From Stenotrophomonas tumulicola (lineage in GTDB: Bacteria > Pseudomonadota > Gammaproteobacteria > Xanthomonadales > Xanthomonadaceae), in the NCBI RefSeq assembly GCF_014117215.1, contig NZ_JACGXS010000002.1:460290-524289 (forward strand): a DNA stretch of 64,000 bases, in the 5' to 3' direction. How positions within the stretch are numbered: position 1 is the first letter of the stretch; every line of letters begins with the position of its first letter. This document shows positions 2,254-49,639 of this stretch, piece after piece. Below the pieces are notes generated by a model that worked only from the letters and a program-made list of their open reading frames with translations, searched no databases and was not told where the DNA came from. A program made the translations under genes and the position numbers.

Positions 2254-3592
2254 CCATCACGGAGTGCCACCGGACGACCGTGCCGGTCGCTGGGCGCCAT
2301 GGTGGGTGCTGGCCTTCGTGGCACTGTGGCCACTGCCGGGCATTGCCGAAGGCGTGCTGGTGCTGGGGGCGCTATACGCTGCCACGCGCATGGTCACGCG
2401 CCGGTTGCAGGGGCATGCGCGCCTGCTGAGCCCGGCTGCATGGGCGCTGGCCAGCATCCTGTTCCTTGGCTATTGGCTGCCGCAGGCATTCTCCGCGCTG
2501 GATGCAGTGGACCCGTCCGCGGCATGGACCAAGACCGCCGCGGGCCTGCGCTATCTGCCCTTCATGTGGCTGGTGGCGATCGCGGTGGCTACGCCGCAAC
2601 GGCGCTCATTGACCTTGAACGGCCTGGCGTTGATCACCGCGGCCTGGACCGCAGATGCACTGGTGCAGGCAGTGGCCGGAACCAGCCCGTGGTTCTGGTC
2701 GTTGGACCAGCTGAAGCAGCTGACGGGTGGAGGTGCGCTGTGCAGCCCCGAAGAAACGGCGCTGGCTGATCGTCTCAGCGGGGCGCTGGGACCGTGCAAC
2801 CTCAAATTCGGCCAGGTCCTGGCAAGCCTGTCGCCGTTCCTGCTGCTGCCTGCAGCAGCGCGGCATGGGCGCATCGGCTGGCTGCTGGCGACGTTGGCGG
2901 TGGGCATCGTGCTGTTGCTGGCTGGCTCGCGCGCCTCCTGGATCACCTTCGCACTGGTGGTGGCCTATAGCGGCTGGCGCCTGCTGGGTGGTCGGCTGCT
3001 GCTGTTGCTGGCCTTGTTCGGCAGCCTGGTTGCGGCAGGATTGGCGGCCAGCGTGCCGCAGCTGCGCGAACGCGTGGCACGCACCGCGCAGGCCTGGGAG
3101 GGCAGCGACGACGGCATGGAACAGGCACTCTCGGGTCGTGGCCGCATCTGGGCAGCGGCCGGCTGCATGATCCAGGCGCACCCGATCAATGGAGTGGGCG
3201 CGCGTGGCTTCCGCGACGCCTACCCGGCGTGCGACGCGCAGGCCGGGCAGCAGGAGGTGTGGGGCGAGGGGCCAGCGTTGCACGCGCACCAGATCGTGCT
3301 GGAAATCCTCGCCGAGACCGGAGTGATCGGCCTGCTGCTGTGGCTGGCGGCTTTCGCCCAGGCATGGCGTGCATGGCGTTTCGCCCCGCCTGATGCCCGC
3401 GACCGTGCACGGCCGGCGATGCTGGCGCTGGCCGTCACGGTGTTCCCGTTGAACACCCATCTGGCGTTCCATTCCACGTTCTGGGGCGGGCTTACCGTGT
3501 TGCTGGCGGCGCTGTATGCCGGCAGCCTGTTCGCCCGGGACGGGGACAGTGCAGCGGGGCATGGCCCCGCTCTACCGAAACCACACGGATAA
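2234..3592 (+). CDS. O-antigen ligase family (Wzy_C/WaaL-like) membrane protein
   Basis: 452 residues with about ten to twelve hydrophobic segments, starting with WAPWWVLAFVALWPLPGIAE. A large loop at roughly residues 270-350 (after LLLAGSRASWITF) contains charged residues and a GVGARGFRDAYP element, followed by an H/E-rich stretch (HAHQIVLEILAETG) that is a hallmark of the Wzy_C ligase/polymerase family. These inner-membrane proteins transfer undecaprenyl-linked glycan to lipid A-core or polymerise repeat units. The start at 2234 overlaps the glycosyltransferase gene, suggesting translational coupling; initiation slightly downstream is possible. A REP-like hairpin lies inside the last codons (3552-3575). 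Ligase versus polymerase cannot be decided here. Confidence 0.75.
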   Translation: MPTSPADHHGVPPDDRAGRWAPWWVLAFVALWPLPGIAEGVLVLGALYAATRMVTRRLQGHARLLSPAAWALASILFLGYWLPQAFSALDAVDPSAAWTKTAAGLRYLPFMWLVAIAVATPQRRSLTLNGLALITAAWTADALVQAVAGTSPWFWSLDQLKQLTGGGALCSPEETALADRLSGALGPCNLKFGQVLASLSPFLLLPAAARHGRIGWLLATLAVGIVLLLAGSRASWITFALVVAYSGWRLLGGRLLLLLALFGSLVAAGLAASVPQLRERVARTAQAWEGSDDGMEQALSGRGRIWAAAGCMIQAHPINGVGARGFRDAYPACDAQAGQQEVWGEGPALHAHQIVLEILAETGVIGLLLWLAAFAQAWRAWRFAPPDARDRARPAMLALAVTVFPLNTHLAFHSTFWGGLTVLLAALYAGSLFARDGDSAAGHGPALPKPHG

Positions 3593-31603: not shown

Positions 31604-31888
31604 GAAGGAGCTTCTCCGATCAGCGAATGAGGGGAGCGAGCAGCAGCTTGCACCATGCGACGGTGCCATGGGCACGGCCGTGGACGACAGCCGCATCGGG
31701 CGGCACGCACTCCAGGCAGGGAATGTGCCGGCGCAGTGTAACTCCCTGCGTCGTCATGACCGCGTCAGTCCAGCACGCGCATCCGATGGTCCCATGACGC
31801 TGCAGGAACCATCGCTGGCAGCATGCGACGGCGCGTGCCCACGGCGTACCATGTCATCGCGATACGCATTCTGTGGTTTAATCCCGGC
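31604..31888. other. Intergenic segment upstream of the thi riboswitch
   Basis: The 285 bp between the transporter start and the riboswitch show no convincing gene. A GTGGTTTAAT stretch (31873-31882) could be part of the thiC promoter. Confidence 0.5.
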
Positions 31889-31975
31889 CGAAGCGGGGGT
31901 ACCGAGGCTGCAAGGCCACGGTTGAGATAGTCCCTTGGAACCTGATCCGGCTGATACCGGCGTAGGGAAGCTTCG
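31889..31975 (+). promoter_or_regulatory. TPP (THI-box) riboswitch controlling thiC
   Basis: The conserved blocks GGTTGAGA, CCTTGGAACCTGATCCGG, CTGATACCGG and CGTAGGGAAGC are present in order, and CGAAGC at 31889 pairs with GCTTCG at 31970-31975 to close P1. These are the aptamer features that bind thiamin pyrophosphate. It begins 182 bp upstream of thiC, so TPP would shut off thiamin pyrimidine synthesis. The segment from 31976 to the gene could hold the expression platform. Confidence 0.93.
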
Positions 31976-32052
31976 CAATGATGGAGGTGCGTGGAACCCC
32001 GCCCAGGGGAGGTCCGCGCGCATGCATCAGTGCGCCGCCGCTTCGTCCCTGA

Positions 32053-49302: not shown

Positions 49303-49335
49303 TGGCGGCATTGCCGGGCCATGCCCGGCAATGCC
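49303..49335. repeat. REP-like hairpin after adk
   Basis: GGCATTGCCGGGCCATGCCC is a stem around GGGCCATGCCC; a GTAG head is replaced by GGCA. It precedes the long hairpin at 49343-49383. Confidence 0.55.
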
Positions 49336-49342
49336 GGGTTGG

Positions 49343-49383
49343 CGCATGAAAAAACACAGGCCTGGTCCATTGCGGACCAGGCC
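49343..49383 (-). terminator. Very strong minus-strand terminator
   Basis: On the minus strand the stem ACACAGGCCTGGTCC pairs with GGACCAGGCCTGTGT around a 5-nt loop, followed by T6. It is oriented to end a minus-strand transcript, although adk and mpl on either side are plus-strand genes. Confidence 0.88.
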
Positions 49384-49503
49384 TGTGTCGTTCAGAACGC
49401 CAGCGGTAGGGCTTGCTCAGGGCCCCGCAGCTTGAGCTCCCATGGGGATGGCCACTTGGGGAGTAGGACCGGTTGGGAACTGCGGCTGGCGACGTAAATT
49501 GTG
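49384..49503 (-). ncRNA. Candidate structured small RNA between adk and mpl
   Basis: Minus-strand reading. A -10-like TATGAT (49515-49510) would start a transcript near 49503; the strong terminator at 49343-49383 ends it, giving about 160 nt. CGCCAGCCGCAG near the 5' end pairs with GCTGGCG (and CTGCGG) near the 3' end, closing a long domain. Single-stranded runs such as CTCCCC and ATCCCC could pair with G-rich mRNA sites. I do not recognise the family. No gene is on that strand. Confidence 0.5.
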
Positions 49504-49639
49504 TCCGTGATCATACTTTTACGCTATCAGGATTTCCCCTACATTGCGTTGGAGTTTTCTCATAGGCGTTGTAGGACTTTTCTGACTTGAATCGACGGCC
49601 TCTGCCCATGGAGCAGGGCGATCGGTAACAATGTCCGTC

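Follow-up and report, generated by a model that had tools for sequence, protein, structure and literature searches.

In Xanthomonas, the C-rich loops of the small RNA sX13 repress mRNAs with G-rich motifs without the help of Hfq, and loss of sX13 raises the mRNAs of type IV pili, according to the part of PMC3771888 available to us. The same genus has sX11, entered in Rfam as 'Proteobacterial sRNA sX11' (RF02230). In the accessible part of PMC4652430, sX11 is reported to depend on hrpG in X. euvesicatoria 85-10 and to be independent of hrpG in X. campestris pv. raphani. We found no functional study of sX11 in the open-licence PubMed Central literature. Csr/Rsm decoys carry many GGA motifs in their loops, and an 18-bp TGTAAGN6CTTACA-like palindrome lies upstream of RsmX/Y/Z and CsrB/C. 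Translational riboswitch leaders can be compact junctions with a kissing interaction, placed directly before the ribosome-binding site.

We compare these systems with an RNA encoded in the window, by which we mean the whole 64-kb stretch of DNA analysed. Its copy of sX11 agrees with the Rfam entry in whole-length match, gene neighbours, terminator position and C-rich loops. The structure line of RF02230 leaves GCUC and the P5 loop both unpaired, whereas we propose that they form a pseudoknot, which is therefore new to the Rfam structure. Also new beyond that entry are a set of 63-nt relatives, here termed mini-motifs, and a promoter layout shared by both. Like sX13, sX11 has hairpins with CCCC loops, and its target class would, as for sX13, be G-rich sites near the start codon, with Hfq dispensable; in contrast, the available part of the sX13 report (PMC3771888) describes no pseudoknot scaffold, and the sX13 locus lies beside polA. 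sX11 may resemble RsmX/Y/Z and CsrB/C in the upstream palindrome but has few GGA motifs, and its palindromes start at about -72 and -51 from the fold, compared to UvrY crosslinks at about -222 to -142 for E. coli csrB/csrC (PMC4682653, in the part available). Some mini-motifs, like riboswitch leaders, sit directly before the ribosome-binding site, and the mini-motif fold is likewise a compact junction with a kissing interaction; however, no ligand or shared pathway was found for these elements, and the seven loci scanned have no above-threshold Rfam match.

The sX11 locus between adk and mpl

The feature between adk and mpl is, near certainly, sX11. cmscan (Rfam 15) aligns the minus strand at 49345-49492 to the whole RF02230 model (1-138) with 101.9 bits (E 4.7e-18; gathering score 70 bits), other families scoring only below threshold at this place, and the gap holds sX11 in 30/30 loci (L005-L034, the window's own and 29 relatives). 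A first-pass annotation, made from the sequence alone, had proposed a structured minus-strand RNA here and pointed to the Xanthomonas sX RNAs. The RNA is real and the hint was correct: the Rfam covariance search that it asked for gives sX11 above the gathering score, with no 6S match at the locus. The 173-nt stretch folds at -72.9 kcal/mol, compared to -54.72 +/- 4.35 for shuffles (z = -4.18; 0/200 as good). The plus strand is stable too (z = -3.42, 0/200 shuffles), so that folding energy cannot by itself decide between the two strands; what sets it as minus is the Rfam match together with the T-run. The features, with palindromes scored out of 12 against a search consensus of TGTARGN6CYTACA, are as follows.

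49345-49492, minus: sX11 small RNA (Rfam match)
49349-49388, minus: intrinsic terminator, 15-bp stem and T6 (sequence and folding)
49398-49404, minus: P1 closing helix, 3' strand (folding and covariation)
49409-49425, minus: P5 hairpin, 49425-49422 with 49412-49409 (two-sided change in 3/4 pairs; 100% of cells paired)
49415-49419, minus: predicted pseudoknot strand 2, UGAGC, in the P5 loop (pairing in sX11 and mini-motif alignments)
49427-49432, minus: P2 helix, 3' strand (covariation)
49433-49437, minus: predicted pseudoknot strand 1, GCUCA (pairs with the P5 loop in 24/24 sequences)
49438-49448, minus: P4, small hairpin with the second CCCC motif (CCCC in 24/25 sequences)
49450-49470, minus: P3 hairpin with C-rich loop UACUCCCCAA (loop CCCC in 24/25 sequences)
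49478-49483, minus: P2 helix, 5' strand, partner 49427-49432 (two-sided change in 3/6 pairs)
49485-49491, minus: P1 closing helix, 5' strand, partner 49398-49404 (folding and covariation, 4/7 pairs two-sided)
49498-49503, minus: conserved -10-like block CACAAT (CACAAT in 8/9 same-genus loci)
49526-49543, minus: proximal palindrome TGTAGGGGAAATCCTGAT (9/12)
49547-49564, minus: distal, weaker palindrome TATGAGAAAACTCCAACG, start -72 (8/12 in the window's genome)
49571-49586, either strand: further palindrome-like site GTAGGACTTTTCTGAC in the sX11-mpl gap (one mismatch; both strands match)

Across 24 distinct sX11 sequences, the named structure including the pseudoknot is paired in 96.3% of cells. 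Two-sided changes occur in 10 of its 29 pairs, a number that 0/500 shuffles reach, so covariation in homologous gaps, on which the first-pass annotation had staked its proposal, is present. The nested helices are recovered by RNAalifold from the alignment alone. In the same 24 sequences, the P3 stem shows one-sided changes only and P4 no two-sided change. The closing helix was read correctly at first sight (CGCCAGC, 49491-49485, with GCTGGCG, 49404-49398), as was the terminator, whose 15-bp stem pairs 49388-49374 with 49368-49354 ahead of T6 and is longer than that of the RF02230 model. The C-rich runs are likewise real, but they had been taken for free single strand, and they sit in two hairpin loops of the conserved fold.

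GCUCA (49437-49433) can pair with UGAGC in the P5 loop (49419-49415) in 24/24 sX11 sequences; because four of the five pairs never vary, sX11 alone does not prove the pseudoknot. In three diverged Xanthomonas copies (L080-L082), ACUCA faces UGAGC, with one pair lost and four kept. We consider it very probable that sX11 carries this pseudoknot, of which we found no description in the titles and abstract openings of the open-licence PubMed Central literature. By comparison, P1, P2 and P5 make up a three-way junction that bears the C-rich hairpins P3 and P4, and the predicted contact between the P5 loop and GCUCA, which lies 3' in the P2 arm, would close it into a compact pseudoknotted scaffold.

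The -10-like TATGAT noted in the first-pass annotation is present at 49515-49510 but is not the conserved -10: when loci are aligned by distance from the fold, its place reads tgtgaa in same-genus L012-L015, L017 and L025. The conserved -10-like block is CACAAT (49503-49498), found also in L019-L021 and L023, and its position reads TATGCT in 5/8 Xanthomonas loci (g18). Given the position of this block, the transcript probably starts at about 49492, giving a length of about 144 nt rather than the ∼160 nt first estimated.

At E <= 0.001, RF02230 matches 35 of 198 family genomes (30 above cut-off) and 0/14 control genomes. We also built a core sX11 covariance model from 24 sequences and applied it to genomes of the family and order. 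It matches 91/395 family genomes, 32 of them of the same genus (two same-genus genomes listed have no match), and, in a draw of 299 genomes from the order, 34 genomes, every one in the window's family. An exact 16-mer scan of named genomes gave at least 117 stretches in at least 80 loci; among the matches listed, 48/80 match the core model at E <= 0.001 and the other 32 do not. These 48 include X. euvesicatoria, X. arboricola, X. hortorum, S. maltophilia and S. rhizophila, and their names are Xanthomonas, Stenotrophomonas, [Pseudomonas] boreopolis, [Pseudomonas] hibiscicola and Lysobacteraceae, with one exception. The exception (L252, JAHREJ010000052.1) is labelled Bacillus subtilis SK7B5 and has an sX11 of 112.6 bits; the label presumably reflects assembly contamination. 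Counting against a family limit, a figure legend in the available part of PMC6337395 names sX11 as one of the RNAs predicted for Herbaspirillum seropedicae, a betaproteobacterium.

For 28 genomes without a core-model match, 30 loci beside mpl were collected, and 27 of these were searched with default filters, one per genome, leaving out G004. One convincing decayed sX11 was found, at L115 of a 3.0-Mb same-genus genome (G338; E 0.011); L103 and L112 are not convincing. The L115 copy (2968-3056) keeps the P5 loop and both C-rich runs, while P2 is replaced and GCUCA lost.

The only other above-threshold Rfam match in the window is a TPP riboswitch (RF00059) at 31885-31986 on the plus strand (63.4 bits, cut-off 54.3). 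Just 3' of adk lies a hairpin, part of which (49307-49330) has a 96% identical copy at G000:C23:89205-89228 in the window's genome (G000) and may be a small dispersed repeat.

Mini-motifs with a predicted pseudoknot in related genomes

A second core-model hit in the Xanthomonas genome G342, away from adk (L083, 39.9 bits), is a 63-nt version of the RNA that has P1, P2, P5 and the GCUCA joint but lacks the C-rich hairpins, and it lies ∼20 nt ahead of a gene whose small product looks secreted. When L083 and its downstream bases served as a DNA query, 27/35 genomes of G342's genus gave matches, the match in at least one (G207) being sX11 rather than a mini-motif. We then used a covariance model of 27 mini-motifs, which does not include the pseudoknot. 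At E <= 0.01 it hits 42 of 247 family genomes, with 58 places of at least 50 bits and up to eight per genome, and the weakest of all these hits may be chance; with strict filters, it finds none at this threshold in the window's genome. A class-wide search hits 2/360 genomes, one of the same genus and one in another family at E 4.6e-4. Scanned against Rfam, six mini-motif loci gave nothing at E <= 0.1 and L083 only a sub-threshold match to sX11 (29.9 of 70 bits), and titles and abstract openings in the open-licence PubMed Central literature yielded no description of the element. One query of the set termed type B found no match in phage records. One L083 query against plasmids found a mini-motif on the mobilizable X. 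hortorum plasmid NZ_LR828258.1 (106092-106155, 83.3 bits). A 74-aa hypothetical protein follows 72 nt after it, and an XVIPCD-domain gene ∼2.5 kb further on.

Aligned to this model, 35 of 37 mini-motifs form all four core pseudoknot pairs, while L162 and the first of the L141 copies do not. Of the 35 rows, 21 pair as GCUC:GAGC and 13 as ACUC:GAGU; the remaining row, L200, reads GUCC:GGAC, with its loop taken from the row itself because the alignment is shifted there. When the loops were reshuffled among the elements, 35 was never reached in 10,000 trials (mean 25.2, maximum 31). A separate alignment of 36 mini-motif loci, with near-duplicates left out and L200 treated as a gap, shows two-sided changes in 14/23 pairs (0/500 shuffles). 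Kinship inflates these counts, yet ACUC:GAGU is found beyond the type B gene set as well, at L178. The pseudoknot thus covaries in the mini-motifs and hardly varies in sX11.

Core letters of the mini-motif are highly conserved, and its gene contexts fall into a few sets. Type B elements account for 32 of 61 positions and 27 distinct places (duplicates fetched twice were removed by hand) in two genus-level groups, and share a downstream ORF cluster holding one small conserved protein. Elements of the other sets stand before either a 74-aa protein starting MDRAEL or small secreted-looking proteins; in the three loci with a gene of the latter kind, the element ends ∼20 nt before the start codon. 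No match above the Pfam cut-off was found for eight downstream proteins (four cut to their first 90 residues). Judged by eye, an anti-ribosome-binding-site pairing may occur in type A leaders; six leaders folded with nested pairs only showed no consistent pattern.

Local clusters of the element occur in the Xanthomonas genome G017, with three copies within 4 kb (C12:528583, 530787, 532156) and two within ∼530 bp (697373 and 697837, both in L141). In L178, L186 and L197, a second short hairpin (GTCTC...GAGAC) lies between the mini-motif and the next reading frame.

Promoter layout and probable kinship

We compared 78 distinct upstream stretches, 27 from sX11 and 51 from mini-motifs; in 62 of them the best palindrome starts between -74 and -71 relative to the fold. 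Scores of at least 10/12 are seen in 33/78, compared to 11/2000 shuffles, and a CCGAYR box lies at -46 to -34 in 20/27 sX11 and 31/51 mini-motif promoters (<2% in shuffles); because the promoter sequences are related, the shuffles overstate significance. These counts exclude five mini-motif hits: L198 (G245), which sits in apparent coding sequence, L200 and L201, which show no such palindrome by eye and were retained in the pseudoknot count, L202, and the second L141 copy. Palindrome scores reach 12/12 in mini-motifs, the best being TGTAGGAAAATTCCTACA (L180, L185), 10/12 in several Xanthomonas-type sX11 loci and 7-9/12 in same-genus loci. In Stenotrophomonas, the genus of the window's genome, the palindrome at -72 is weak, scoring 8/12 where that site is found.

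A genome-wide search of the window's genome gave 39 palindromes versus 29 in a backward control, barely above it, and the ORFs flanking 12 of the sites show no clear theme. The palindrome-like site GTAGGACTTTTCTGAC is centred ∼23 nt from the nearest similar site and might also serve mpl.

How closely are sX11 and the mini-motif related? Run unfiltered on 26 mini-motif loci, the core sX11 model recovers 26/27 places at E <= 1, including 20 at E < 0.05, and gives four further hits outside these places. The mini-motif model on 14 sX11 loci is weak, its best hit of 18.4 bits lying amid chance hits of like score. Both groups have the same promoter layout, with a palindrome starting at about -72 and the CCGAYR box near -40, and this agreement is independent of fold similarity. 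We judge it probable that sX11 and the mini-motif form a common family; common descent is likely, not certain.

Evenly balanced, in our view, is the fuller proposal that sX11 is the free-standing branch of an undescribed Lysobacteraceae family of pseudoknotted RNAs characterized by the junction, a GCUC:GAGC kissing helix and a GacA/UvrY-like promoter. Most members would be 5' leaders of small accessory-protein genes, and sX11 would have gained two C-rich hairpins and become trans-acting. If this is true, an sRNA conserved in Xanthomonas and Stenotrophomonas derives from, or is ancestral to, a multi-copy mRNA leader, the two belong to one two-component regulon, and one scaffold serves both a structured mRNA leader and a trans-acting sRNA. 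The palindromic promoter ties sX11 to the leader-bearing genes of relatives. With a defined pseudoknot, this promoter and a plausible regulator in the window's genome, the role of sX11 becomes testable.

Proposed mechanism, rival readings and candidate partners

We lean slightly towards sX11 as a stand-alone, trans-acting RNA that is activated by a regulator and whose pseudoknotted scaffold shows two CCCC loops to G-rich sites; the mechanism as a whole is moderately supported. Transcription would begin just upstream of P1 (minus strand, ∼49492), as the conserved block suggests, and end at the terminator (49388-49349). A GacA/UvrY-type response regulator of the NarL/FixJ family may bind at least two upstream palindromes and turn sX11 on, and, in relatives with leader-bearing genes, the same protein could switch those on too. 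The scaffold would keep sX11 stable and display both CCCC loops, a display that the sequence comparison supports. By analogy with sX13, the loops would pair with G-rich ribosome-binding sites and block translation, an antisense action to which we give slightly better than even chances. Control by a GacA-type regulator is a tentative part of the scheme, on the lower side of even.

A different reading would assign the function to the pseudoknotted core, as the binding site of a protein or small molecule. On this view the mini-motifs are cis-regulatory leaders, either riboswitch-like or bound by protein, sX11 is a free copy titrating the same factor, and the C-rich loops are secondary. The core is common to sX11 and to elements before many small genes, with very conserved letters, and the type B elements (27 distinct places, two genus-level groups) share their downstream ORF cluster; moreover, an element ending ∼20 nt before the start codon, as in the three secreted-protein loci, could govern translation. 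However, the eight downstream proteins (four as first 90 residues) match no Pfam family and suggest no ligand, and the near-invariant CCCC loops are left unexplained by the core alone. The window's genome has sX11 but no mini-motif at E <= 0.01 (strict filters), and for that reason titration of leaders is unlikely there. We regard this reading as unlikely overall.

Much less probable is a Csr/Rsm-type decoy that, like RsmX/Y/Z, sequesters RsmA/CsrA under GacA control. The GacA-box-like palindromes fit such a decoy, yet 30 sX11 matches contain only one to four GGA each (one in 19/30) and zero to two ANGGA, and the conserved GGA of the consensus fold belongs to the 3' side of P4 rather than to a loop; we rejected the decoy on these counts. 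Least probable of all, and already contradicted, is that the locus encodes 6S RNA or an antisense or terminator by-product of adk or mpl, as its long hairpin shape and place beside adk might suggest. 6S RNA (RF00013) has no match here, and the genome's own copy (G000:C12:525637-525822, 84.8 bits) lies outside the window, ∼1.3 kb past its end. Conservation of structure and loops extends well past the terminator. In L030-L034 the core is retained although the Rfam match there does not include the terminator and is ∼250 to 1100 bases away from adk.

Returning to sX11 as a regulator-activated antisense RNA, we infer NarL/FixJ-type activation from the upstream palindromes. Among seven GerE proteins scanned, of 14 found in the window's genome, the one nearest to GacA/UvrY is L229, which scores 219.9 bits to NF007018, below the NCBIfam cut-off of 280. 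The gacA gene is linked to uvrC, whereas the 3' neighbour of L229 is a KDPG-aldolase gene; L229 as the regulator of sX11 is a guess. Among the open-licence PubMed Central papers listed, we found no title or abstract opening that connects GacA with sX11. The consensus site of UvrY is TGTAAGN6CTTACA (PMC4682653, in the part available).

On the target side, a complement of the P3 loop, the 10-mer TTGGGGAGTA, has four copies in the window's genome (one in sX11 and three at other places), compared to one for the backward control. One of the three (L361, G000:C3:96211-96220, minus strand) stops 7 nt short of the start codon of a gene in the PilT/PilU family (520.7 bits, cut-off 319.1). In both G064 and G111, the orthologue of this gene has behind it a second relative with 39% identity, and on this ground we read the gene as pilT. 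The pilT ribosome-binding site and the P3 loop region of sX11 are complementary over 11 nt. The exact match is not conserved: in G064 (Xanthomonas) there is an 8-nt GGGGAGTA further upstream in the leader, in G111 only AGGGGA is left, and pilT is absent from the 400 kb examined in G179. We therefore treat pilT as a candidate target, a lead for further work. Apart from this, the pilT leader UUGGGGAGUAGCCGCUCAUGG contains GCUCA, which is complementary to the P5 loop, in addition to its stretch complementary to the P3 loop region.
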